Notes under the pieces: generated by a model
Databases searched by the model: none
What the model saw: only the letters and a program-made list of their open reading frames with translations
What the model was told of the DNA's origin: nothing
Assembly (NCBI GenBank): GCA_902544985.1
Contig: CACCFV010000001.1
Coordinates: 62,001 to 126,000, forward strand
Direction: 5' to 3'
DNA length: 64,000 nt
DNA from: an uncultured Pelagibacteraceae bacterium
Lineage (GTDB): Bacteria; Pseudomonadota; Alphaproteobacteria; Pelagibacterales; Pelagibacteraceae
Position numbers and translations under genes: made by a program
Shown here: piece after piece, positions 4,094 through 32,080 of the stretch
How the letters are laid out: each line of letters begins with the position of its first letter
Numbering within the stretch: the stretch's first letter is position 1

Positions 4094-4990
4094 ATGTCTA
4101 AAAGCGTTTCATTGTTTAGTGCTTTGCTGTGTACATTTATTTGGGGAACTACATTTATTGCTCAAGACACTGGAATGGATGATATTGGTCCGTTTACATT
4201 TAATGCAGTAAGATTTTTTGTGGGTTTTTTGGCAATTCTTCCTTTAGCATTGTTATTTGAGACTAAAAAATTTAAATTAGAATTTAAAACTGGTTTTAGA
4301 TATTTTGCTATTCTATCTTTTTTAATAGGATTATCATTATTTTTAGGATCTGCATTGCAGCAAGTAGCTCTGCTATACACAGATGTAGCTAATGCTGCTT
4401 TCTTTACGATTTTTTATGTTCCGATGGTACCAATTATCATTTTTATATTTAAGAGGGACTCATTGCATTGGAGTGTATGGCCTTCAGTTATTTTATGTTT
4501 AATTGGTGGATATCTTTTAACCAATTTTTATGATGCCACAGTTAGACTTGGAGACACATTGGTTATTCTTGGAGCATTATTCTGGAGTACTCACATTATA
4601 TTTACTGGAATGATTGTTAAAACATATAACTTACCCTTAACATTAGGTGCAATCCAAACTTTATTAGTGGCTTTATTTTCTTTTATCATTGGTTTGATTT
4701 ATGAAGAATTTGTAATTGAAAATATTCTCAACGAGATAGACTCTATACTCTATGCAGGAATTTTATCAGGTGGTTTTGCATTCGTTTTACAAATTTACGC
4801 TCAAAAAAATATAACACCTGCACCAGCAGCCATAATTTTTTCATTAGAAGGTGTATTTGCAACTATCGCAGCATGGTTTTTATTAAGTCAAATTTTAGAT
4901 TTTAATAATATATTAGGGTGCTTGTTCATATTGTGTGGTGTTTTAATTTCTCAATTGTTACCCTTGATGAGGAAAATAAATTATCAATAA
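4094..4990 (+). CDS. EamA/DMT-family inner-membrane transporter
   Basis: A polytopic membrane protein of about 298 aa with roughly ten hydrophobic segments in two homologous halves, typical of the drug/metabolite transporter superfamily. The first helix holds FIWGTTFIAQ, close to the conserved WGSNF-like motif of EamA proteins, and the second half holds ALFWSTHIIF. Substrate cannot be deduced. An in-frame TTG exists at 4082, overlapping the aceF stop, but ATG 4094 fits the family N terminus better. The 3' end overlaps the convergent uppP gene by 33 bases. The gene follows aceF by 8 bases and is probably cotranscribed with it. Confidence 0.85.
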   Translation: MSKSVSLFSALLCTFIWGTTFIAQDTGMDDIGPFTFNAVRFFVGFLAILPLALLFETKKFKLEFKTGFRYFAILSFLIGLSLFLGSALQQVALLYTDVANAAFFTIFYVPMVPIIIFIFKRDSLHWSVWPSVILCLIGGYLLTNFYDATVRLGDTLVILGALFWSTHIIFTGMIVKTYNLPLTLGAIQTLLVALFSFIIGLIYEEFVIENILNEIDSILYAGILSGGFAFVLQIYAQKNITPAPAAIIFSLEGVFATIAAWFLLSQILDFNNILGCLFILCGVLISQLLPLMRKINYQ

Positions 4991-5737
4991 TAATACTAAA
5001 GCAATAATAATTCTATAAACTACGAATACAGTTAAAGAAAAATTCCTTACATATCTTATAAAATATTTGACTGTGATAAATGAGAAAATAAAAGAAAGAG
5101 TAACTGCAATTAATAATAAATAATTAAATTCAGTAGACTGTTGTACAGCATCTTGAAGACCTAAAAAACTTGCCCCTGCTAACGCGGGTATAGATAATAA
5201 AAAGGCGATTTTGCTTGAGTCAACTCTATTAAATTTTAGAAATCGAGCTGCTGTTAAAGTTATTCCTGCTCTGCTCACACCAGGGATGAGTGCTAAAATT
5301 TGAAATAAACCTATGAATAATATTGATTTTATATTTAAGTTGGTTGATATATTTTGATCAGTATCTCTTTTATCCGATAAAAATAGGGCTAAACCAAAAA
5401 ATAGAGTTGTCCATGCAATAATTTCTATATTTCTTAAAAGATTAATTATTTCGATCGAATATATTATATATCCAAAAATTATAAGAGGTATTGATCCAAC
5501 TAAAATCAAAACCAATAGTTTATGATTGTTTCTTAAATTTAGTAAATCTTTTTTAAAGTAATAGATTATTGCAAATAAAGAACCCAAGTGCAGACCAATA
5601 TCAATGAATAAAGAGCTTGAGCTAAAATCATAAAAATTTGATATCAAGATCAGATGGGCTGAGGAGCTAATAGGTAAAAATTCAGAAATTCCTTGGACCG
5701 CAGAAAGAATTAGTATTTCTATAAAATCTTGAAGCAT
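4958..5737 (-). CDS. uppP: undecaprenyl-diphosphatase
   Basis: Integral membrane phosphatase (BacA/UppP family) that dephosphorylates undecaprenyl diphosphate to recycle the lipid carrier of peptidoglycan and surface-polysaccharide synthesis. The first family motif is seen near the N terminus (QGISEFLPISSS, residues 15-26, with Glu19 and His28) and the second further on (PGVSRAGIT). The length of 259 aa and about eight hydrophobic segments fit the family. It is divergent from gltD and convergent with the EamA transporter, with a 33-base 3' overlap. The activity would also serve the polysaccharide genes elsewhere in the window, but there is no direct linkage. Confidence 0.93.
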   Translation of the reverse strand: MLQDFIEILILSAVQGISEFLPISSSAHLILISNFYDFSSSSLFIDIGLHLGSLFAIIYYFKKDLLNLRNNHKLLVLILVGSIPLIIFGYIIYSIEIINLLRNIEIIAWTTLFFGLALFLSDKRDTDQNISTNLNIKSILFIGLFQILALIPGVSRAGITLTAARFLKFNRVDSSKIAFLLSIPALAGASFLGLQDAVQQSTEFNYLLLIAVTLSFIFSFITVKYFIRYVRNFSLTVFVVYRIIIALVLLLIIYFPHQG

Positions 5738-5843
5738 AAAGATGTCGTAGCTTAAAAAATATTCATTTTAAACAATTCGATTTAATCATAATAGGTATGC
5801 AAAAAATAAATTTCTCGCATTTTATGCTAGATAAAGTTAATTA

Positions 5844-5864
5844 TAGGTCATAATTATTGACCTA
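5844..5864. promoter_or_regulatory. inverted repeat upstream of gltD, possible operator
   Basis: A perfect 7-base inverted repeat, TAGGTCA-N7-TGACCTA, lies 56 bases upstream of the gltD start in the 183-base divergent uppP/gltD spacer. Its size and symmetry suit a dimeric DNA-binding regulator, and the right arm overlaps a TTGACC that could act as a -35 hexamer. The TATAAA at 5876-5881 is too close (13 bases) for a normal promoter spacing. Function is inferred. No regulator gene is next to it. Confidence 0.4.
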
Positions 5865-5920
5865 AATAATACTTTTATAAATAAAAACAATGTGTAATTT
5901 GCCTAAATTTTAAGGATTTT

Positions 5921-7360
5921 ATGACTGATAAAATGTTAAAATTTGTGAAAATAGGTCAACAAACCCCACCTAAAAGAAAAATTGGCACAAGAAAAGAGGA
6001 TTTTAATGAGATCTATGACGAGTTTGTAACTAAAAAAGCTGAAGAACAATCAAGCAGATGTTCTCAATGTGGAGTTCCATTTTGCCAAGTACATTGTCCT
6101 TTAAGTAACAATATACCAGATTGGTTAAAACTTACAGCAGAGGGAAGATTAAAAGAGGCCTACGAATTATCTCAAAGTACCAACAATATGCCAGAGGTAT
6201 GTGGAAGAATTTGTCCTCAGGATAGACTATGTGAGGGTAACTGCGTTATTGAACAATCTGGACATGGAACAGTAACTATTGGTTCAGTTGAGAAATATAT
6301 TAATGATAAAGCGTGGGAACAAGGTTGGGTTAAACCAATTTCTTTAAAACATGAGAAAGAACAAAGTGTTGGAATAATTGGTGCTGGTCCAGCAGGTTTA
6401 GCTGCTGCTGAGCAGTTAAGAAAAAATGGATATAAAATTACTGTTTATGATCGATATGATCGCGCAGGTGGATTATTAATTTACGGTATTCCAAATTTTA
6501 AACTTGAAAAGCATGTAGTTGAGCGAAGAACAAAGTTATTAAAAGATGGTGGAATAGAATTTATTCAAAATTTTGAAGTTGGTAAAGATGCAACCCTAGA
6601 ACAGTTACGAAAAAAGCATGATGCAATTTTAATTGCTACTGGTGTATATAAACCAAGAGAAGTTGAATTACCCGGTAATGATTTAGGTAATATTTTTCCT
6701 GCAATGGAATTTTTGACAGCATCAAATAAAAAAGGTCTAGGTGATAAAGTGGAGTTGTTTGATAAAGGAACTTTGAATGCAGAAGGAAAAGATGTTGTTG
6801 TAATAGGTGGTGGCGACACGGCCATGGATTGCGTAAGAACTTCGGTAAGACAAAAAGCCAAATCGGTAAAATGTTTATATAGAAGAGATAAAGAAAATAT
6901 GCCTGGATCTGCTAGAGAAGTTGCAAATGCTGAGGAGGAGGGCGTAGAATTTGTTTGGCTTTCTAGTCCAAAAGAATTTAAAGGAAAAAATAAAATTGAA
7001 AATTTAGTTGTTAATCGAATTGAATTAGGTGAACCAGACGAGTCAGGAAGACGAAAACCAGAAATTAAAGAAGATTCAGAATTTACGGTCAAAGCTGATA
7101 TGGTAATCAAAGCTCTTGGATTTGATCCAGAAAATTTACCATTATTATTTGATGCACAAGATTTACAAGTAACAAAATGGGGAACAATTAAAACTGACTT
7201 TAATTCGATGGAAACAAATCTTAAAGGTGTTTTTGCTGCAGGAGACATTGTAAGAGGAGCGTCGTTAGTAGTATGGGCAATCAAAGATGGGAGAGATGCA
7301 GCTTCTTCTATGAAAAAATATTTAGAAAGTACGGAACTAAAAAAAACAAAAGTAGCATAA
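5921..7360 (+). CDS. gltD: glutamate synthase (NADPH) small subunit
   Basis: Small (beta) subunit of NADPH-GOGAT. It oxidises NADPH and passes electrons through FAD and Fe-S centres to GltB for glutamate formation. Seen: two N-terminal Cys clusters (CSQCGVPFCQVHC near residues 47-59, and CGRICPQDRLC near 91-101) for 4Fe-4S centres, the FAD motif GAGPAGLAAAE, the NADPH motif GGGDTAMDC, and a C-terminal FAD-closing segment FAAGDIVRGASLVVWAI. The 479-aa length is typical. An AAGGA-like ribosome site precedes ATG 5921. Gene order is gltD then gltB, the reverse of the enteric operon, with a TAATG junction to gltB. Confidence 0.96.
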   Translation: MTDKMLKFVKIGQQTPPKRKIGTRKEDFNEIYDEFVTKKAEEQSSRCSQCGVPFCQVHCPLSNNIPDWLKLTAEGRLKEAYELSQSTNNMPEVCGRICPQDRLCEGNCVIEQSGHGTVTIGSVEKYINDKAWEQGWVKPISLKHEKEQSVGIIGAGPAGLAAAEQLRKNGYKITVYDRYDRAGGLLIYGIPNFKLEKHVVERRTKLLKDGGIEFIQNFEVGKDATLEQLRKKHDAILIATGVYKPREVELPGNDLGNIFPAMEFLTASNKKGLGDKVELFDKGTLNAEGKDVVVIGGGDTAMDCVRTSVRQKAKSVKCLYRRDKENMPGSAREVANAEEEGVEFVWLSSPKEFKGKNKIENLVVNRIELGEPDESGRRKPEIKEDSEFTVKADMVIKALGFDPENLPLLFDAQDLQVTKWGTIKTDFNSMETNLKGVFAAGDIVRGASLVVWAIKDGRDAASSMKKYLESTELKKTKVA

Positions 7361-20404: not shown

Positions 20405-22213
20405 ATGAGCACTATTGATAATATTAGAAATTTTGCAATTATTGCTCACATCGATCATGGTAAATCAACCATAGCTGATAGAATTATTCATAAGTGTGGT
20501 GGTCTCACTGAAAGAGAAATGAAAGCACAAGTTTTAGACTCCATGGATATTGAGAGAGAAAGGGGCATCACAATTAAAGCTCAAACTGTAAAATTGAATT
20601 ATAAAGCAAAAAATGGCAAAGAATATATTTTAAATATTATAGATACCCCTGGTCATGTCGACTTTAGTTATGAGGTAAGCAGGTCTCTCTATGCTTGTGA
20701 GGGATCAATATTAATTGTTGATAGTACCCAGGGAGTTGAAGCTCAGACATTAGCCAATGTTTATCAAGCTTTAGATATCAATCATGAAATAATTCCTGTA
20801 TTAAATAAAATAGATTTACCTGCATCTGATTTAGATAAAACAAATAAACAAATCGAGGATGTTATCGGAATAGATACGGAAAATGCAGTTCCTTGTTCGG
20901 GTAAAACTGGTGAGGGTATTGAGGAGATTCTAGAGCAAATTATAAATCAATTACCAGGTCCAAAAGGAAAACCAAATGATGATTTAAAATGTTTACTAGT
21001 TGATAGTTGGTACGACACTTATTTAGGGGTAGTGATATTAGTTAGAGTAATCAATGGCAAAATAATAAAAAATATGAAGATTAAAATGCTGTCTACCGAT
21101 CAAGATTATATCGTTGAGAAAGTTGGAGTTTTTACTCCTAAAGCGAGAGATATAAATGAATTAAACACTGGTGAGATTGGTTTTATAACTACTGGAATAA
21201 AAGTTTTATCTGAAACAAAAGTTGGTGACACGATTTGTGATGCATCTAAACCAAAAGTTGACCCTTTGCCAGGATTTAAACCTAGTAAACCAGTGGTATT
21301 TTGTGGTCTTTTTCCTGTAGATAGTTCTGAGTATCAAAAATTAAAGGATGGACTAGCTAAATTACAACTTAATGATGCAAGCTTCTCTTTTGAAGCTGAG
21401 TCGTCATCTGCTTTAGGTTTGGGGTTTAGATGTGGTTTTTTGGGATTACTTCATCTTGAAATAATTACAGAAAGACTTGAAAGAGAATTTGATGTTAATT
21501 TACTGACTACAACTCCTGGTGTTGTATATAAAGTAAATTTAAATAATGGAGATATTATAGATTTACAAAATCCCTCCAGTCTTCCAGATCCAACTTTCAT
21601 AAAATTTATTGAAGAACCTTGGATCAAAGCAACCATAATAACTCCAGATGAATATTTAGGTTCAATAATAAAGTTATGTCAGGATAAAAGAGGAATTCAA
21701 ACAAATTTGACTTATTCAGGTAACAGAGCTGTGCTTAGTTATGAGCTTCCATTAAATGAAGTAGTTTTTGACTTTAATGACCGAATTAAATCAATGACGA
21801 GTGGTTATGCTAGTTTTGATTATGAGATAATTGAGCATAGAGAAGGTGATCTAGTAAAGCTTGGAATACTAGTTAATGGAGAACCAGTTGATGCTTTAGC
21901 AATGATGATCCATAAAGATTTTGCTCAAAGAACAGGAAGAGAGGTATGTGAAAAATTAAAAGATTTAATACCAAGACATAACTTTATGATACCAGTTCAA
22001 GCTGCAATCGGTGGAAAAATTATTGCTAGAGAGACTATTAAAGGTTTTAAAAAAGATGTTCTTACAAAAATACATGGTGGAGGGGCTACTGACAGAAAAA
22101 GAAAATTACTTGAAAAACAAAAAAAAGGTAAAGCCAGGTCCAAACAATTTGGAAGAGTTGAGATACCACAAGAAGCTTTTATTGGAGTTTTAAAAATTAA
22201 TAAAGAAAAATAA
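20405..22213 (+). CDS. lepA: elongation factor 4 (LepA), back-translocating GTPase
   Basis: A ribosome-associated translational GTPase of 602 aa. G motifs: AHIDHGKST (G1), the effector RERGITI (G2), DTPGHVDF (G3), NKIDLP (G4). EF-G-like domains II, III and V follow, then the LepA-specific C-terminal domain with [19 protein letters not shown]. That last domain separates it from EF-G and TypA. It starts 7 bases after pheT. Its stop is immediately followed, with no spacer, by the first gene of the accessory glycan region, so the boundary between conserved and accessory DNA falls at 22213/22214. Confidence 0.97.
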
Positions 22214-23029
22214 ATGAAAATATTTGATTGTTTTTCATATTTAGATGAAGATCTTTTATTAGAACTAAGATTGAATATATTAAATAAATATATTGATCAT
22301 TTTGTTATCGTTGAAGGAAATAAAACTTGGCAAAATAATCCAAAAAAATTAAAATTTGATATTAATAAATTTCAAAAATTTAAAGATAAAATTATATATA
22401 TACCTGTAGAGGACATGCCAGATGGAGATAATCCATATTTAAGAGAAAATTTTCAAAGAAATTGTATTTTAAGAGGTCTTACTAATGCAGAGAATAATGA
22501 TTTAATAATCATATCTGATTTAGATGAAATCCCAAATCCAAAAAATTTAGATAAATTTGACACAAATATGAGATATGCTGTATTTAAACAATTACATTTC
22601 TATTATAAATTCAATTTACAAAGTCAAAAAAATACACATTGGTATGGAAGCAGAATATGTGTAAAAAAATATTTAAAATCTCCACAATGGTTAAGAAATT
22701 TAAAATTTAAAAAAAGACCATTTTGGAGGATTGATAAATTAAGATTAAATAATATTCTTGAGAATGGTGGATGGCATTTTTGCAATTTAAAAAATCCAAA
22801 TGATTTGTTGTATAAGTATAAAAATTTGTGTGAGACTAATGATCCATATAGTTTCAATGAAAAAATTGATGAAAAATATTTAAATATTCATGAAATTGAG
22901 AATAGAGTAAAACTCGGTTTAGATATAATCGGAAGAGATGAGATTTATAAAGTTAAGAAATTAAATGAAGAATTTCCAGAATATTTACTAAAAAATCTAA
23001 CAAGATATAAGGATTGGTTTGCTAATTGA
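22214..23029 (+). CDS. GT17-like glycosyltransferase
   Basis: A 271-aa protein that starts MKIFDCFSYLDEDLLLELR and has HFVIVEGNKTW, a DLDEIPNP acid motif suited to metal/nucleotide-sugar binding, and WHFCNLKNPND. This arrangement matches glycosyltransferase family 17, first known for beta-1,4-N-acetylglucosaminyl transfer and common in bacterial and viral glycan clusters. Sugar and acceptor are unknown. It follows lepA without a spacer and may be read through from that operon. It is richer in A+T and Lys/Asn than lepA, as expected of a variable surface-glycan region. Confidence 0.75.
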   Translation: MKIFDCFSYLDEDLLLELRLNILNKYIDHFVIVEGNKTWQNNPKKLKFDINKFQKFKDKIIYIPVEDMPDGDNPYLRENFQRNCILRGLTNAENNDLIIISDLDEIPNPKNLDKFDTNMRYAVFKQLHFYYKFNLQSQKNTHWYGSRICVKKYLKSPQWLRNLKFKKRPFWRIDKLRLNNILENGGWHFCNLKNPNDLLYKYKNLCETNDPYSFNEKIDEKYLNIHEIENRVKLGLDIIGRDEIYKVKKLNEEFPEYLLKNLTRYKDWFAN

Positions 23030-23041
23030 TTCAATAAATTT

Positions 23042-23848
23042 ATGTCAAATTTGAAAATTTTTTGTGTAACCGATAAAGAATTAGATTTTTTAGCTGAATC
23101 TAAATATAGCATTGGTTGGGTAGGTAAAAAAATACCACCAAAACATTACATTACTTGCAACAAAGACAAAAATATTTTTTCAAAAGAAAAACATTACTCA
23201 GAATTAACATTCCATTATTGGTATTGGAAAAATAAACTTGATTTAAATGATAAAAATTGGCTTGGGTTTTGTCAAAAGAGAAGATATTGGATAAAAAAAA
23301 ACTCTATAGGTAAATCAATTAATAAGACAAATATCAATCAGCATATTTTAACAAATGCACCAGAAGAATGGAATGAATATGATGCAATAATTTGTGAACC
23401 TATATATGTTAACAAAGTTAAAAAGATAAAAATGTTAAAAAGGGGCTTCAGATCACTTTTGCAACAACCAGAAATTTTTTTTAATGAAAATAAGCAAACA
23501 CTTTTATTTCATTTTGACATGCATCACGGATTTGGAAACTTAAAAAAAGCTATTCAGCTTGTAAATTCCGAAGATAGAGACGAATTTTTCAATTACGTAA
23601 ACTATTCGACTTCATACAATCCTCATATTATGTTTATTGCGAAACCCAGTATAGCTAATAAATGGTTTGAAGCAGTATTTTCTTGGCTTTTTAAGTGTGA
23701 AGAGCTTTTTGGTTTTGAGAACTTAAAAGGATATGACACACAGAGATTATATGCATATTTGGCTGAAAGGTACTTGTCATTTTGGTTTAACAAATATACT
23801 AAAACCAAAACATGGCCATGGACTTTGATAGATTATAACAGAATTTAA
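23042..23848 (+). CDS. DUF4422-like protein, probable glycosyltransferase
   Basis: A 268-aa protein with ELTFHYWYWKN followed by WLGFCQKRRYW, resembling the DUF4422 pattern of an E-x-TA-x-YW-W-KN block and then a GL-HYRRYF block. The C-terminal half has DTQRLYAYLAERYLSFWF, also like the family's closing ERL motif. DUF4422 proteins occur in polysaccharide clusters and are thought to be glycosyltransferases; this role is inferred. The gene is 12 bases after the GT17-like gene and ends one base before the convergent aminotransferase. No signal peptide is seen. Confidence 0.6.
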   Translation: MSNLKIFCVTDKELDFLAESKYSIGWVGKKIPPKHYITCNKDKNIFSKEKHYSELTFHYWYWKNKLDLNDKNWLGFCQKRRYWIKKNSIGKSINKTNINQHILTNAPEEWNEYDAIICEPIYVNKVKKIKMLKRGFRSLLQQPEIFFNENKQTLLFHFDMHHGFGNLKKAIQLVNSEDRDEFFNYVNYSTSYNPHIMFIAKPSIANKWFEAVFSWLFKCEELFGFENLKGYDTQRLYAYLAERYLSFWFNKYTKTKTWPWTLIDYNRI

Positions 23849-23849
23849 A

Positions 23850-24965
23850 TTAAATTTTATTAAGTAATTTTATAATTTTTTTAATTTTTGAGTTTTCTAT
23901 GGTTGGATAAGTGGGTAATGAAAAAATTTTTTTTGAATATTTTTCGGTGACTCTAAGATCTTTATAAGAACTATTTTTATAAGCTAACATTTTATGTAAT
24001 GGATATGGATATTGAACACCCAAAAAAATATTAAATTTTTTTAATTTTTTAAAAATAATGTCTCTATTTATATTTTTATGTGCAACAACATAAAGATGAT
24101 AAACATGAAATTTACCTTTTTTTTTGATAGGTTTTATTAGATTGGGATTTTTTAAGCCTTTATCGTACATTTCTGCGATTTCACGTCTTCTTTTAATATA
24201 ATTATCTAAACTTTTAATTTTAACATTCAGAATTGCTCCCTGGATTTCACTCAATCTTGAATTTGTTCCATTATCAACAGCAAAATATTTATTATTCCAC
24301 CATTTGCTGGGATCAAGTTGTTCCATTCCATAAAATCTTAGTCGTCTTAATTTTTTAAAAATTCTCTTATCATTAGTTGTAATAAATCCACCATCTCCAT
24401 ATGCGCCTAATATTTTTGTTGGATAAAATGAAAAGCAACCTGTTACTCCAAAATTACCAACTTTTTTTTTATTAAATAACGCCCCCTGAGCTTGTGCACA
24501 ATCCTCTATTACTTTTATATTATATTTTTTTGCAATTTTTATAATTTTATCCATACAACATGATTGACCATAAAGATGAACAGGTATTATTGCTTTTGTT
24601 TTTTTTGTAATTATTTTTTCAATTTTTTCAGGATCCATTAGATAGTCGTCTTTAATATCTACAAACTTTACTGAAGCACCTGTATTCACAATCGCCGATA
24701 CTGTTGGAATAGCTGTATTTGCCACAGTTATGACCTCATCATTTTTTCCTATATTTAATGCTTTTAAGGAGAGATAGATTGCATCTGTTCCACTTGCGAC
24801 TGACAAGCCATATCTTGATTTATTTTTTTTTAAAAACTCTTTCTCAAACTTTAAAACTTCATGCCCAAAGAATAATTTTCCACTTCTCAAGGTTTTATCA
24901 ATTGAAAAAATTATTCTTTTTTTTAATAGACTATATTCTTTTTTATAATCCCAACTTTTTATCAT
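23850..24965 (-). CDS. DegT/DnrJ/EryC1-family sugar aminotransferase, FdtB/QdtB-like
   Basis: A PLP-dependent aminotransferase of nucleotide-sugar biosynthesis, 371 aa. Seen: SGTDAIYLSL in the cofactor-binding part, EDCAQAQGA (Asp155 facing the PLP nitrogen), and the Schiff-base Lys184 in SFYPTKILGAYGDGG. The sequence best fits enzymes that aminate dTDP-3-keto-6-deoxyhexoses (FdtB/QdtB). This agrees with the FdtA-like ketoisomerase four genes upstream in the same operon. It is the last gene of a six-gene minus-strand operon and overlaps its upstream neighbour by 4 bases. The exact sugar (Fuc3N or Qui3N type) cannot be fixed from sequence. Confidence 0.85.
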   Translation of the reverse strand: MIKSWDYKKEYSLLKKRIIFSIDKTLRSGKLFFGHEVLKFEKEFLKKNKSRYGLSVASGTDAIYLSLKALNIGKNDEVITVANTAIPTVSAIVNTGASVKFVDIKDDYLMDPEKIEKIITKKTKAIIPVHLYGQSCCMDKIIKIAKKYNIKVIEDCAQAQGALFNKKKVGNFGVTGCFSFYPTKILGAYGDGGFITTNDKRIFKKLRRLRFYGMEQLDPSKWWNNKYFAVDNGTNSRLSEIQGAILNVKIKSLDNYIKRRREIAEMYDKGLKNPNLIKPIKKKGKFHVYHLYVVAHKNINRDIIFKKLKKFNIFLGVQYPYPLHKMLAYKNSSYKDLRVTEKYSKKIFSLPTYPTIENSKIKKIIKLLNKI

Positions 24966-25681
24966 TTTAATAATTTATTCATTTTTTTTAAACTCATAAA
25001 TGGATTTAGTGGAAATTTTCCTTTGAATGTTTTTTTTGCAAAAATCTTCTTTACGTCTTTTTTATTTTTTTTTGCAAAATTAAAAATTGTTTTCACTGGT
25101 CCTCCCAAATTTATTACACCTTTTTTATTTAAAAGTTTTTTAAATATTGGAACTACTTCATCATGAAAAATAAAATTTGTTTTTACATCAGCAAATGCCT
25201 CCTTATGTACAAAAGGTTTCTCAGTCATACAAATTCTTAATATTAAGGAGTTTTTATACATATGAACTGATGTCTCTCCACCAAGTTTTGACCAGCCATA
25301 ATTATTAAATGGTAATAACGCATCTTCTTCAGTGTAATTACCTTTTTTACAAGGATAAACGTAAAGGGTTGAAAAATAGATTAATTTAATATTATATTTT
25401 GCGCACATCATAGTTATATTTGCTGTACCAGAAATATTTAAATTAATACTTTTAATTGGATTTTGATCATGGATCTTCATCGGCCTAGAGAGGCCTGCCA
25501 TATGTACTAAAATTTTAGGTTTTACTTTTTTTAGATATCTTTCAATTGATTTAAGACTTGTAATATCTAGCTGTCTTTTATTTGGGAATAAAGTTTTAAA
25601 TTTGAAATTACTTTCTTGTAATACCCTGCCAAATCTTCCGCTGCCTCCAGTAAATACGATTTTGTGTTTAGATTTTAACAT
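24962..25681 (-). CDS. NAD(P)-dependent sugar reductase/epimerase, RmlD-like SDR
   Basis: A 239-aa short extended-SDR protein. The Rossmann motif is FTGGSGRFGRVLQ near the N terminus, HMAGLSRP follows, and the catalytic Tyr-Lys pair is probably in NNYGWSKLGGE (YxxxK). It resembles dTDP-4-dehydrorhamnose reductase and related sugar-nucleotide reductases, but it is shorter than RmlD (about 290 aa), with a small C-terminal substrate domain. Substrate unknown. It overlaps the upstream methyltransferase gene by 14 bases. Confidence 0.7.
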   Translation of the reverse strand: MLKSKHKIVFTGGSGRFGRVLQESNFKFKTLFPNKRQLDITSLKSIERYLKKVKPKILVHMAGLSRPMKIHDQNPIKSINLNISGTANITMMCAKYNIKLIYFSTLYVYPCKKGNYTEEDALLPFNNYGWSKLGGETSVHMYKNSLILRICMTEKPFVHKEAFADVKTNFIFHDEVVPIFKKLLNKKGVINLGGPVKTIFNFAKKNKKDVKKIFAKKTFKGKFPLNPFMSLKKMNKLLK

Positions 25682-26867
25682 GGGAAATCCATTCTCTCTT
25701 TTTTTCTGTGAAAACTGATTCTTTTTTTAGAATTTCATCTTTATGATTCCAGGCAAATAAATATACGATTTCAGCATCATCTTTCCTAAAGTTTTCAACA
25801 CTAACAATTGGAATATGCATTCCAGGGGAAAATTTACCAATTTTTTCTTTTGTTGTATCACAAATGTAATCAATGATATTTGAATCTATATTACAATAAT
25901 TCAATATTGTTGTACTTTTTGATGTCGCTCCATATCCAACAATTCTTTTTCCCTCTGAAATGTTTTTCTTTAATAATTGAACTAGTTTAAGTTTTGAATT
26001 TTCACAATTTTTTTTAAAATTTATGCAGGACTCAATGTTATCCAAATTATTTCTTTTTTCTTCATCTAATATTTTATTAACATTTTTGCTTATCTTAAAT
26101 TTATTTTTTCTTCCAATAACATATCTCATAGATCCCCCATGAGTTTCTTGTTTTATCATATCTATTAATTCCATATCATATAAATCAAAAATTTTTTGAA
26201 CGGAAGTTCCAGAAAAAATAAAAATATGTTCGTCATAAATTTGATCATAAGAAGTTTTTTCAAACATTGATCCTAAATATGGTTCTTCAAATATAAAAAC
26301 ACCATCTTTTGCCAACAATTTATCTAGGGTTTTAATTAAATTATTCAATTCTGGTATATGACATATAACATTTGCGGCGAAAACAGCTGATGTACTACCA
26401 ATAAAGTTTTTTATGAACTCCAAGTTTTCACTATTAAAAAATTTATTAATTGTTTTTACGCCATTTTTATTTGCTAAATCTGCAACATTTTTTGATGGTT
26501 CGAAACCTACATAATTTAAATTACTATCTTTAAAATTACTTAAGAATGTTCCATCATTTGATCCTATTTCAATAATATTTGAGTTGTTTTTTATGTATTC
26601 TTTTTTAATAAATTCTGAATATTTCTTAAAATGTAATTTCATAAATTCAGAACTTCCTGTAAAAAAAGGATAATTTTGATTAAACATTTGATCAGGGGTC
26701 GGATGCTCATTTAATTGAAATAAAGAGCATTTTTCTGAAAATCCAACCTCAAGATTAAAGAAAAATTCTTTATTAAAATTTTCTTTTTCTAAAAAACCAT
26801 TAGCGATAGGCATTTTTCCGAATGACATAAACGGATAAAGTTGTGAGTTAGTTATTTTACAATGCAT
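25668..26867 (-). CDS. SAM-dependent methyltransferase of the sugar C-methyltransferase type
   Basis: A 399-aa protein laid out like NDP-hexose C-methyltransferases (Methyltransf_13 / class I MTase / Methyltransf_14). An N-terminal domain corresponds to the Zn-binding part (FGKMPIANGFL), the SAM motif NIIEIGSNDGTFLS lies near residue 95, and a C-terminal domain has IVGYGATSKSTTIL. The N-terminal Cys set looks reduced (Cys3 and one in SEKCSLF), so zinc binding may be altered. It suggests a branched, C-methylated or otherwise methylated sugar. Adjacent genes overlap at both ends. Confidence 0.75.
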   Translation of the reverse strand: MHCKITNSQLYPFMSFGKMPIANGFLEKENFNKEFFFNLEVGFSEKCSLFQLNEHPTPDQMFNQNYPFFTGSSEFMKLHFKKYSEFIKKEYIKNNSNIIEIGSNDGTFLSNFKDSNLNYVGFEPSKNVADLANKNGVKTINKFFNSENLEFIKNFIGSTSAVFAANVICHIPELNNLIKTLDKLLAKDGVFIFEEPYLGSMFEKTSYDQIYDEHIFIFSGTSVQKIFDLYDMELIDMIKQETHGGSMRYVIGRKNKFKISKNVNKILDEEKRNNLDNIESCINFKKNCENSKLKLVQLLKKNISEGKRIVGYGATSKSTTILNYCNIDSNIIDYICDTTKEKIGKFSPGMHIPIVSVENFRKDDAEIVYLFAWNHKDEILKKESVFTEKKREWISHVKI

Positions 26868-27793
26868 TATTTTATATTTTTAAATAAATTTAGCGTATTG
26901 GCAATATCTCGATCAAGATTAGAATTCAAATACAATCCTTTAGCAGATAATTTTTTTTTACTCACGTGATATGACAAATGATTCATTATTGGAGAATATA
27001 CATTAGAAATTTTGATATTTTTTCTATATTTTCTTATTTTTTTAATAATCTCGTAAACAGTATAATTGTTTGAGACAACATTATAAATATCGTTTTCATA
27101 AAAATTTTTTTCTATTGTGAATTTAAAAAGTTTAAAAACATCCCCAAGAGATAAGTAAGGTCTAAATTGATGCAATGCTGTTTTATATACTTTTATGCTT
27201 TCTCCCAAGGCAACACTTAGGCAAAAATTATTAACAGCTGTATGAAATCTTATTCCTTTGGATACCCCAGCGATAGTGCCTAATCTAAATGTATTATATT
27301 TTAATTTTTTTCCTAAATTTTTTAAGATTTTTTCTTCTATGAGTTTAATTTTTGCATATGGGCTTTGTGGTTTTAAATATTTTTTTTCACAATTTTCATC
27401 CACCAAACTGGTATTTTTAGTATAAACACTAGTGGTTGAAACATGAATTAATTTAACTCGATTTTTTTTACAAAAATTAATTACAGTTTTAAAAGAATTC
27501 AAATTATTCGAATACATCTCTTTTCTCAACTTAAAACTTTTTGCTGCATTAGTCATTGATGCTAAATGAATAACTAAATTAATATTCTTAAAACCTTTAA
27601 GGGATTTTGGATCAGTCAAATCTCTTTTGAAAAACTCAATTTTATTTTTTTTTTTATAATTAAATAAAGTATCTAGCCTGTTAGATTCTAAATTATCTAT
27701 AAGGAATGCTTTTTTTACTTTTTTAATCTTATGTAGATTTTCTACTAAATAGGATCCAATATGGCCACAAGCTCCTGTAATCAAAATATTCAT
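26867..27793 (-). CDS. NAD-dependent sugar epimerase/dehydratase (extended SDR)
   Basis: A 308-aa extended SDR with the N-terminal Rossmann motif TGACGHIGSYL, the HLASMTNAA segment, and the active-site YAKIKLIEE (YxxxK) following SPYAK. This family includes UDP-glucose 4-epimerase-like and dTDP-sugar-modifying enzymes. The specific reaction cannot be assigned. Its start overlaps the FdtA-like gene by 4 bases, and its stop touches the methyltransferase start, consistent with translational coupling through the operon. Confidence 0.78.
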   Translation of the reverse strand: MNILITGACGHIGSYLVENLHKIKKVKKAFLIDNLESNRLDTLFNYKKKNKIEFFKRDLTDPKSLKGFKNINLVIHLASMTNAAKSFKLRKEMYSNNLNSFKTVINFCKKNRVKLIHVSTTSVYTKNTSLVDENCEKKYLKPQSPYAKIKLIEEKILKNLGKKLKYNTFRLGTIAGVSKGIRFHTAVNNFCLSVALGESIKVYKTALHQFRPYLSLGDVFKLFKFTIEKNFYENDIYNVVSNNYTVYEIIKKIRKYRKNIKISNVYSPIMNHLSYHVSKKKLSAKGLYLNSNLDRDIANTLNLFKNIK

Positions 27794-28194
27794 TTAATTT
27801 TCAAAATCTTTTTAAATTCAGCATATTTTTCTATATAATCCTTAAATTCATATTTTCTGTCACATAAAACCAAAACAATAGAGTTTTTTGTTAAAAATTT
27901 TAATCTACACCAAACCAAATTGGAGACTAAAACACCAATATTTTTTTTTGGACTTAGATTAATTTTCCTATTTTGATCTTTTGATTTTAGAATTAAGGAA
28001 ATATTTCCTGAAATCGGTATAAAAAGTTGTTTACACTTTTTATGTGCATGATCACCTCTGTACTCATTTTTTTTTCCAAAAATATAAAAAATTCTCTTTA
28101 CATTAATAGGGAACTTTTTATCAAAGCTTATAGGAATTAGTTTACCACTTTTTTTTTTGTACGATCTAAGCTTAATTGTTTTTATCTTACTCAT
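27790..28194 (-). CDS. FdtA/QdtA-like sugar 3,4-ketoisomerase (WxcM cupin)
   Basis: A 134-aa single-domain cupin. The signature RGDHAHKKCKQLFIPISG matches the WxcM/FdtA pattern (RG-HAHK-C-Q), in which a His acts as general base to move the keto group between C4 and C3 of dTDP-4-keto-6-deoxyglucose. Its product would be the substrate of the FdtB-like aminotransferase encoded at the end of this operon. Distinguishing the 3,4-ketoisomerases that give Fuc3N from those that give Qui3N is not possible here. It lies next to, without overlap, the operon's first gene. Confidence 0.8.
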   Translation of the reverse strand: MSKIKTIKLRSYKKKSGKLIPISFDKKFPINVKRIFYIFGKKNEYRGDHAHKKCKQLFIPISGNISLILKSKDQNRKINLSPKKNIGVLVSNLVWCRLKFLTKNSIVLVLCDRKYEFKDYIEKYAEFKKILKIK

Positions 28195-28938
28195 TTAATA
28201 TTTTTTATGGTTAAAAAAATAATTTTTTAGTTTCCGATAGAAAAATAGTTTAGTCTTTTTAAAAAAGTTTTGTTTATATTTCTTCCCATTAGTGCCAATA
28301 TATCCTTCTATGTCAGCATAAATTGGGGTGTTAGATAAAATTAAACCTTCAGAAATAGCTTTCAATGTGGCATTAGCAACACAATTTTCAAAAATTTTAT
28401 TCATTTTGTCATTTGTTTTTTTTGTTTCAGGAATTAAATAATCTAAGAAAAATTTTTTCGATCCTCCATATATATTACAATCTGCAAATTTAAGGTTATT
28501 TGTAATATTTACATAAATATCAGCATTACAATTGAATATGTGTTTGATAATGTTGTCAAAATTTTTTACACGATGTCTGCCTGTTACATCTATAAAATAA
28601 TCTGTTTTTTTTGCTATGGTTGATTTTTCGAAAACCTCTTTTAAACAAAGATATTGACCATATCCTTTGCCAAGTTCTTTGTTAAAAGAATTATTAGAGT
28701 TAGATGAAATTATTTCAATTTCTTTATTAGGAACATCTTTAGTAACATTTTTAAAATAGGTCAAATCGTAATTGGAATTCTCAATAAGGATTAATTTTTT
28801 TATAAAATCATTTTTCACCCAAAAATTAAAAGATTTTTTATAATCCTCTAGCCTAATATCAATATTAGATCTGACCAGGTTTGGCATATCCCCAGGATCA
28901 ATTGTACAAGTTAAAATCAATGAAAAATCCTTCGACAT
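28195..28938 (-). CDS. hypothetical protein, possible GT-A-like glycosyltransferase
   Basis: A 247-aa protein of no family I recognise with certainty. It begins with SLILTCTIDPGD and has LILIENSNYD, KELGKGYGQYLCLKEVF, and DYFIDVTGRHRVKNFD. The last arrangement (an acidic residue before TGR, then a placement segment) resembles small GT-A-like sugar transferases in polysaccharide clusters. It is the first gene of the six-gene minus-strand operon, so its promoter lies in the 59-base divergent spacer 28939-28997. No signal peptide or membrane span is evident. Function inferred only from context. Confidence 0.5.
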   Translation of the reverse strand: MSKDFSLILTCTIDPGDMPNLVRSNIDIRLEDYKKSFNFWVKNDFIKKLILIENSNYDLTYFKNVTKDVPNKEIEIISSNSNNSFNKELGKGYGQYLCLKEVFEKSTIAKKTDYFIDVTGRHRVKNFDNIIKHIFNCNADIYVNITNNLKFADCNIYGGSKKFFLDYLIPETKKTNDKMNKIFENCVANATLKAISEGLILSNTPIYADIEGYIGTNGKKYKQNFFKKTKLFFYRKLKNYFFNHKKY

Positions 28939-28997
28939 AATAAAATTTTAATATCAATTTTTTTATTTAATTATATATTAACCTTTAAATTTGTCCT

Positions 28998-29816
28998 ATG
29001 CTTAAATTATCAGATAAGGTTGTTAATTCTCTATTCAAATCAAAATTACTAAATTTTATACCTAAAAGAGTCATCAAACGTTTAATTAAAAAAAATAAGA
29101 TTTTTTTCATTCAAACTTCTTTAAAAAATCTACCGTCAAATAATTATCCATTTCTTTTATCTTTAGAGGATTTAGATAAAAAAAAAGATATCTATTCGAA
29201 TGATGAGACAAAAATCCCTACAAATGAGTTTCCTTATTTAGGTTTAATTTTAAAATTGATATTTTATGAAAAAGAAAAATTTAGATTTTTAGATTTTGGA
29301 GCACAATATATTGATAATTATCTTTTTTTGAAAAATAAAAATCGAAATATTGAATATTTTTATCATGATTTAGTTGAGAATAATAAAATTGTCCAAGAAT
29401 TTGTTAATTTTAACAATTTAGAAAATATTGAAGTTTTAAATAATTTGGAAGATATAAACAAAAAAGAATATGACTTTATTTACTTTGGATCAGTAATTCA
29501 ATATGTAAATGAATTTAAAAAGTTATTACAAGAGATTCTTAAAAAAAAACCAAAATATATATATTTTTCTGGATTAAATATTTATCAAAAAAATACAAAC
29601 AATTTTATAATTTGCAAACAATTCAATGTTTTTCCACAGATGAATTATTGTTATTTTTTTAAATTTGATTATTTGGTTGATTTAATCTGCTCTAAAAATT
29701 ACGACTTATTATATTGCACTCAGAATCCAAATTCAAAAATTAACTATTCTCATATTAACAGTCATTTGAATGAAAATTGTCAATATTTGGATTTATTTTT
29801 TAAGATTAAAAATTAA
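28998..29816 (+). CDS. TIGR04325-like SAM methyltransferase
   Basis: A 272-aa protein whose middle reads FRFLDFGAQYIDNYLFL, then EYFYHDLVENNKIV, then FIYFGSVIQYVNEF. This matches the order in the TIGR04325 family of putative methyltransferases found in surface-glycan clusters: an LDFGG-like SAM loop, a W-VVE-like strand, and an S-LQY segment. The SAM loop lacks the usual second Gly (FGAQ in place of FGG-G), so activity is uncertain. It is divergent from the sugar operon and ends 3 bases before tRNA-Ser, marking the right edge of the accessory region. Confidence 0.55.
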   Translation: MLKLSDKVVNSLFKSKLLNFIPKRVIKRLIKKNKIFFIQTSLKNLPSNNYPFLLSLEDLDKKKDIYSNDETKIPTNEFPYLGLILKLIFYEKEKFRFLDFGAQYIDNYLFLKNKNRNIEYFYHDLVENNKIVQEFVNFNNLENIEVLNNLEDINKKEYDFIYFGSVIQYVNEFKKLLQEILKKKPKYIYFSGLNIYQKNTNNFIICKQFNVFPQMNYCYFFKFDYLVDLICSKNYDLLYCTQNPNSKINYSHINSHLNENCQYLDLFFKIKN

Positions 29817-29819
29817 ATT

Positions 29820-29909
29820 GGAGAGATGGCCGAGTGGTTTAAGGCGCACGCTTGGAAAGTGTGTAAAGGAGCAATCCTTTCATGGGTTCGAATCCCATTC
29901 TCTCCGCCA
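29820..29909 (+). tRNA. tRNA-Ser (anticodon GGA)
   Basis: A 90-base class II tRNA. The acceptor GGAGAGA (29820-29826) pairs with TCTCTCC (29899-29905), with G73 and encoded CCA. The anticodon arm is CACGC-TTGGAAA-GTGTG with anticodon GGA. A long variable arm follows, and the T-loop is the standard TTCGAAT. It lies between the glycan island and gyrB. Confidence 0.97.

Positions 29910-30016: not shown

Positions 30017-32080
<2,064 letters not shown>

Follow-up and report, generated by a model that had tools for sequence, protein, structure and literature searches.

A nine-gene sugar island between lepA and gyrB in SAR11, very probably exchanged by homologous recombination in its flanks

In SAR11 bacteria (Pelagibacterales), the known surface-glycan region is hypervariable region 2 (HVR2) at the rRNA genes, which in HTCC1062 occupies 48 kb between the 23S and 5S genes (excerpts of PMC2217521 and PMC11898729). 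We analyzed 64,000 nucleotides (hereafter the window) from an uncultured Pelagibacteraceae bacterium (contig CACCFV010000001.1, positions 62,001 to 126,000), in which nine genes lie between lepA and tRNA-Ser(GGA), with gyrB following. This island is very probably a SAR11 replacement flexible genomic island, exchanged by homologous recombination via its lepA and gyrB flanks. The whole block, often together with much of lepA, the tRNA-Ser gene and much of gyrB, would be swapped with DNA of other SAR11 cells by crossovers in or beside lepA and gyrB. As far as the excerpts of the same two articles describe the HVR2/O-chain cluster, our locus resembles it in its bacterial order, its surface-glycan genes, its replacement-type variability and the homologous recombination proposed for it, but differs in its position (lepA-tRNA-Ser/gyrB rather than 23S-5S rRNA), in its size of 0.2-7.8 kb and in being empty in 12 of 67 relatives. 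The comparison with HVR2, border divergence peaks and replacement islands also draws on parts of PMC7318151, PMC7542561, PMC12421898 and PMC7029224. We found no description of an island at the lepA/gyrB site in the open-access literature, and earlier notice elsewhere is possible; it is apparently a known kind of island at an undescribed site.

We compared the locus among relatives, as the initial annotation had proposed for SAR11 strains. A lepA search of genome contigs gave the best 80 Pelagibacteraceae loci, of which 67 reach gyrB; the 13 without gyrB were excluded from interval counts (loci are numbered L, genomes G and contigs C). The distance from lepA to gyrB ranges from 200 to 7679 bp, with a median of 2881 bp, and 12 of the 67 sites are empty (<300 bp, tRNA only). 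In the 67 relatives together with the window, 45 distinct gene line-ups are found in 68 intervals. The nine genes of the window occur in none of the 67 complete intervals and in one further genome, G094, so that conservation in all relatives, which the initial annotation named as evidence against its view, is not seen. The other relatives carry genes of other kinds rather than reduced versions of this set. Open reading frames (ORFs) in the intervals, called from ATG starts only and at least 90 amino acids long, such that short genes and fragments are missed, form 65 clusters, one of them a gyrB piece (110 amino acids, L061). Pfam scans covered 62 cluster representatives and three window proteins, and the families listed in them (25 of 29, of 42 and of 37) belong mostly to glycosyltransferases, sugar-nucleotide enzymes and transferases of methyl, sulfo, formyl or acyl groups, alongside some oxidoreductases. 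More than 500 bp separate lepA from the tRNA gene in 49 of the 67 relatives, the tRNA gene from gyrB in 14, and both in 10; L042 and L047, where the tRNA gene was missed by blastn and found by ARAGORN, are in neither the left nor the right count. The tRNA-Ser gene, taken as the right edge in the initial annotation, holds that place in the window but is not a fixed border, and the variable unit is thus lepA-tRNA-Ser-gyrB. Two intervals have oddities of their own: gyrB is found in two separate matches in L061:12080-14123 (residues 3-287 and residues 286-685), which may reflect a broken reading frame or an assembly fault, so that this interval counts as empty, and a 423-amino acid minus-strand ORF with no Pfam family overlaps tRNA-Ser in L085:11839-13107.

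We measured third-codon-position divergence along the genes of a stretch that starts 10 kb upstream and extends past gyrB, and took as close those genome pairs with a third-position divergence (p) <0.15 in a reference segment 6.5-9.6 kb upstream (96 pairs, 63 of them with gyrB). Across the 96 close pairs, divergence increases from ~0.08 in the reference to 0.12 in pheT and reaches 0.275 over the final 67 lepA codons; on the right side, the 63 pairs with gyrB show 0.20 at the start of the gene and 0.15 at its end. Distant pairs, with pheT as the reference, have no such rise, indicating that the segment is not simply fast-evolving. We related these peaks to island content in 87 of the 96 close pairs; the other 9 were excluded since the L079 and L081 intervals are incomplete. 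At the lepA end, mean divergence is 0.170 for pairs alike in left content (n=23) and 0.307 for pairs that differ in it (n=64), whereas the two sets are equal in the reference (0.079 and 0.075) and in pheT (0.118 and 0.117). When content was shuffled within groups of close genomes, the lepA-end contrast was reached in 0 of 2000 permutations, and the contrast in the first two thirds of lepA in 42 of 2000. No content effect was seen for pheT, pheS or the reference in the within-group permutations (2000). These findings together support that the divergence peaks at the island edges follow island content and not the far flanks, clearly at the left border and more weakly at the right.

Individual comparisons outline exchanged tracts. 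Between L037 and each of L020, L022 and L035, divergence climbs within lepA and drops again within gyrB against a background of 0.06-0.08, probably a single event seen in three comparisons. The window and G094 differ by 0.24 in the background segments u12 and u13, but only by 0.12 in lepA and 0.14 in gyrB. The opposite holds for the window and four equally distant relatives (L018, L039, L054 and L067), with 0.18-0.27 in the background, 0.22-0.25 in pheT and 0.41-0.44 in lepA; in L018, L054 and L067 gyrB reaches 0.36-0.43 (L039 has no gyrB in reach), and divergence drops again in the segments HK or d33. Seen side by side, these comparisons indicate that lepA, the island and gyrB act as one block.

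Several points weigh against exchange by homologous recombination as the full account. The genomes compared represent one per species and are mostly incomplete. The content effect is weak on the right side, being reached in 100 of 2000 permutations for the first half of gyrB, 943 for the second half, 256 for HK and 240 for d33. One 12-genome group supplies 66 of the 87 pairs in the content test, two four-genome groups have no same-content pairs, and L020 and L035 have four cargo clusters in common, yet are 0.40 apart at the lepA end. Homologous recombination spreads variants of the block but leaves the entry of new genes unexplained, as well as cargo on either side of the tRNA gene and the presence of five of the island genes (g3-g7 below) at other loci.

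The initial annotation had described nine genes of sugar modification and transfer with low G+C, and our analysis agrees. Nine ORFs (134-399 amino acids) fill 22214-29816 from lepA to tRNA-Ser(GGA), in the order two plus, six minus and one plus strand, and seven of the nine proteins belong to Pfam families suited to glycan work (sugar transfer or modification). No Pfam family was found for g8, and none for g9 except a sub-threshold methyltransferase match. The genes and their flanks are as follows.
20405-22213, plus strand: lepA, left flank, with recombination breakpoints at the pheT/lepA border or inside lepA.
22214-23029, plus strand: g1, glycosyltransferase family 17 (GT17; PF04724, E 1.8e-20).
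23042-23848, plus strand: g2, DUF4422 (PF14393, E 4.9e-22), putative glycosyltransferase, a class we take this family to belong to.
23850-24965, minus strand: g3, DegT/DnrJ/EryC1 sugar aminotransferase, QdtB-related (E 3.5e-101).
24962-25681, minus strand: g4, RmlD-like short-chain dehydrogenase, probable 4-ketoreductase (E 5e-26).
25668-26867, minus strand: g5, TcaB9-type sugar C-methyltransferase (PF08484, 7.2e-48).
26867-27793, minus strand: g6, NAD-dependent epimerase/dehydratase, the second short-chain dehydrogenase/reductase (E 4.1e-29).
27790-28194, minus strand: g7, FdtA/QdtA-type dTDP-4-keto-6-deoxyhexose 3,4-ketoisomerase (dTDP, deoxythymidine diphosphate; E 1.8e-31).
28195-28938, minus strand: g8, no family, weak glycosyltransferase-A (GT-A)-like predicted fold, probable glycosyltransferase (structure model).
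28998-29816, plus strand: g9, possible methyltransferase (TIGR04325, 39.3 bits, cut-off 80).
29820-29909, plus strand: tRNA-Ser(GGA), within the exchanged block.
30023-32080, plus strand: gyrB, right flank, with recombination breakpoints within the gene or where it borders HK.

The left edge is as exact as had been claimed, the lepA stop codon TAA (22211-22213) directly abutting the ATG of the GT17 gene g1; on the right, three bases lie between the g9 stop at 29816 and the tRNA gene. The G+C content is 24.2% in the island and 29.8% in the remaining window, and among 564 stretches of 7.6 kb taken at 100-bp steps, including those that overlap the island, only 1 has a value as low. As to the Lys/Asn-rich character ascribed to the proteins, lysine, asparagine and isoleucine make up 29-40% of the island genes' products, a range overlapping the 21-36% of eleven flanking genes. 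A second GT17-like gene is present elsewhere in the genome of the window (G000:C5:7832-8480; L002, L003), with 65-74% DNA identity to parts of g1.

We searched the genus with g6 and found matches in 13 of 201 genomes, the window's own included; 8 of the 12 others were examined. G094 has all nine genes in the same order at the same site, with 88-97% identity. Such retention would be expected if the island were ancient, inherited vertically and lost in most relatives. This is very unlikely, because other genomes carry different genes instead of deletions, flank divergence depends on content, and lepA and gyrB separate the window from G094 less than u12 and u13 do. The island genes themselves differ between the two genomes by 0.125 to 0.243, with g5, g8 and g9 at 0.21-0.24, which fits that last argument less well; given this mixture, we make no case for recent transfer from one genome to the other.

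The five genes g3-g7 also occur elsewhere. G025 keeps the order g7-g6-g5-g4-g3, with the genes located between tRNA-Ser and gyrB instead. G181 and G042 also have all five in order, next to tRNA-Met in the former and in a stretch lacking any tRNA in the latter. G071 has g3-g5-g6-g7 beside tRNA-Leu with g4 slightly apart, and G008 has g3-g5-g6-g7 near a Xer-like gene; in G040 (five cassette genes) and G009 (four) the genes are rearranged, with no tRNA in the stretch. Found at several chromosomal places, g3-g7 thus behaves as a module. The cassette ends adjoin tRNA-Met in L098:8492-12900 and tRNA-Leu in L099:2292-6070 (four genes), and an IMES-2 RNA, a 323-amino acid Xer-like recombinase and the cassette copy are mutually adjacent in L096:5291-6762 (G008). 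No rRNA was found by Rfam near the cassette in seven loci, and these copies are hence not placed at HVR2. In L103, L104, L110, L111 and L112, ORFs by a single Xer-like gene match lepA-gyrB cargo at 24-47% identity, and this gene may therefore mark another variable sugar site. The cassette at several loci, mosaic line-ups with single genes in common and cargo on both sides of the tRNA gene would also suit a tolerant spot at which genes are inserted and deleted one by one through illegitimate events, with the flank signals incidental. As an account of the island we regard this as unlikely, since it does not predict raised, content-tied divergence over hundreds of lepA and gyrB codons. Next to block exchange by homologous recombination, gene-by-gene insertion and deletion is probably a slower source of novelty.

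Two insertions at the locus do appear to be directed by the tRNA gene. We searched 73 loci, the window included, for second copies of either tRNA-Ser half, and only L144 and L086 exceed the best control score. In L144 (G069; 4844-6301), a 1.3-kb insertion on the gyrB side is bounded by the intact tRNA-Ser gene and by an 80-bp exact repeat of the 3' part of that gene (positions 11-90). It carries one T5orf172/MUG113 gene (287 amino acids), which among 201 genomes of the genus was found in this one alone. By eye, short GACGACAAG-like motifs that resemble each other can be seen near both ends of this mini-element. In L086:11812-13975, two genes, one of them for a methyltransferase, are enclosed by tRNA-Ser and a remnant of its T arm with 18 exact bp, again on the gyrB side and resembling an attachment (att) site arrangement; no integrase was seen in this insertion. 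These insertions, together with the position of the cassette next to tRNA-Met in G181 and of four cassette genes next to tRNA-Leu in G071, are what would be expected of site-specific integration at tRNA-Ser by a tycheposon- or satellite-like element whose integrase was lost or acts in trans. For the island itself this is quite unlikely. Both repeats lie on the gyrB side and are confined to 2 of 73 loci, and none above control is found in the window or in G094. As the initial annotation had stated, no integrase family is found among the nine island proteins in Pfam and TIGR scans, and exact repeats of any part of the tRNA 3' half reach no more than 11 bp within 9 kb in the window, at the level of reversed controls (71 loci, 9.5 bp on average and 14 bp at most). 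The window's cargo lies 5' of the tRNA gene, where integration at the 3' end would not put it. The sole PF00589 match found in the window's genome (77% complete) is on another contig, C9, and 30 genus integrases, drawn from the PF00589 matches listed, gave no tblastn match at E 1e-3 in 81 loci, a search that could miss other integrase types, as could the cargo scans with their 25 families listed each. The flank divergence tracts call for homologous recombination. The preference of the initial annotation for recombination between flanks over site-specific insertion is borne out by the content-tied peaks and qualified by the two relatives with tRNA 3' repeats, in which tRNA-directed insertion at lepA-gyrB represents a side process.

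Other possible traces of mobility were dropped. The tRNA-Ser gene has 82-100% identity to the window's copy, with divergent forms in L008, L013, L032, L042, L043 and L047, but tRNA-Phe, far from the island, is also strongly variable (101 genus genomes), and we do not read this variation as a sign of integration. Matches of 44 bp to the tRNA-Ser 3' half in at least six genomes were considered as att remnants; the three examined are tRNA-Ser(GCT) genes. As for an origin in phages, viral contigs gave 3 and 11 pattern matches for g1 and g5, the two proteins searched, none of them confirmed as a relative, and GT17 proteins in 7 phage records, at 27-30% identity, are too distant to be the source.

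We next consider the chemistry that the proteins may perform, as predicted from family and structure matches. The g3 protein matches QdtB (PDB 3frk, 1.2e-73) and best of all 7b0d, named scyllo-inositol transaminase (1.1e-95). A full-length three-domain match (PF08421, PF13489, PF08484) is found for g5, which aligns with the sugar 3-C-methyltransferase 5t64 over residues 2-397 (2e-91). PF05523, the family of FdtA/QdtA ketoisomerases, covers the full length of g7, which is thus predicted to be a 3,4-ketoisomerase of this type. PDB searches gave no chain at 1e-20 for g6 and no match at E 1 for g9. The predicted model of g8, built from five sequences (predicted local distance difference test score 74.5), bears a weak likeness to GT-A-type nucleotide-sugar enzymes (best E 1.4e-6; template-modeling score to query ≤0.53 among the 50 rows listed), and g8 is probably a glycosyltransferase. 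On contig C8 of the same genome, RmlB (411 bits, over cut-off) adjoins an RmlA-like gene (352.6 bits, cut-off 360.65). The g3-g7 proteins would convert dTDP-4-keto-6-deoxyglucose, made elsewhere in the genome, to a deoxysugar with a 3-amino and/or a 3-C-methyl group. Sugar transfer would fall to g1, g2 and probably g8, and g9 may methylate. The island product is likely a dTDP-linked 3-amino and/or 3-C-methyl deoxysugar, and g3-g7 may yield one sugar or two, with the order of steps likewise conjectural. No polymerase or flippase family was detected among the nine proteins in Pfam and TIGR scans, and the products thus probably decorate a glycan built elsewhere, perhaps by the HVR2 cluster. The sugar may be displayed at the cell surface, and phages may exert selection on it.

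The lepA-tRNA-Ser-gyrB interval may even act as a double-sided dock, a possibility we raise tentatively and hold doubtful. Here, whole-block swaps under surface-sugar selection would drag lepA and gyrB alleles between lineages, small tRNA-directed elements would load the gyrB side, and g3-g7 would move between docks, two of them beside other tRNAs, the SAR11 surface being assembled combinatorially from small sites besides HVR2. The locus adds to SAR11 a small, tractable hypervariable glycan site with natural empty alleles, at which two adjoining essential genes, lepA and gyrB, record exchanges in their sequences. If phage choice drives the exchange, cells differing by a few kilobases could simply be compared. 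The gyrB gene is used as a marker, and since it travels with the island, SAR11 gyrB trees may partly follow the island.

Methylophilaceae are bacteria distant from SAR11. Their flexible genomic island 1 (fGI-1) is, in the portions of PMC10872708 concerned, a replacement island bordered by tRNA-Ser(gga), with synonymous divergence (dS) peaks at its borders as in our locus, and is assigned to phage avoidance; it differs in that its other end is tRNA-Arg, a tmRNA lies mid-island, and lepA and gyrB are absent from that text. Tycheposons, as portrayed in parts of the same article, share with our locus the cargo beside a tRNA gene and, in two relatives, the tRNA-end repeats, but neither a tyrosine recombinase nor an att repeat was found for the window's island. 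Replacement flexible genomic islands, as presented in excerpts of PMC4033161, resemble our locus in having surface functions and mostly synonymous border divergence peaks, although they occupy other sites and those excerpts do not mention empty alleles. At lepA-gyrB, relatives indeed carry different genes of similar function at the same position (45 line-ups, listed families mostly glycan-related), and flank divergence peaks are tied to exchange, clearly on the left and more weakly on the right. In the SAR11 case of the excerpted PMC4033161, the rRNA operon was inferred to move along with its island, comparable to tRNA-Ser at lepA-gyrB.

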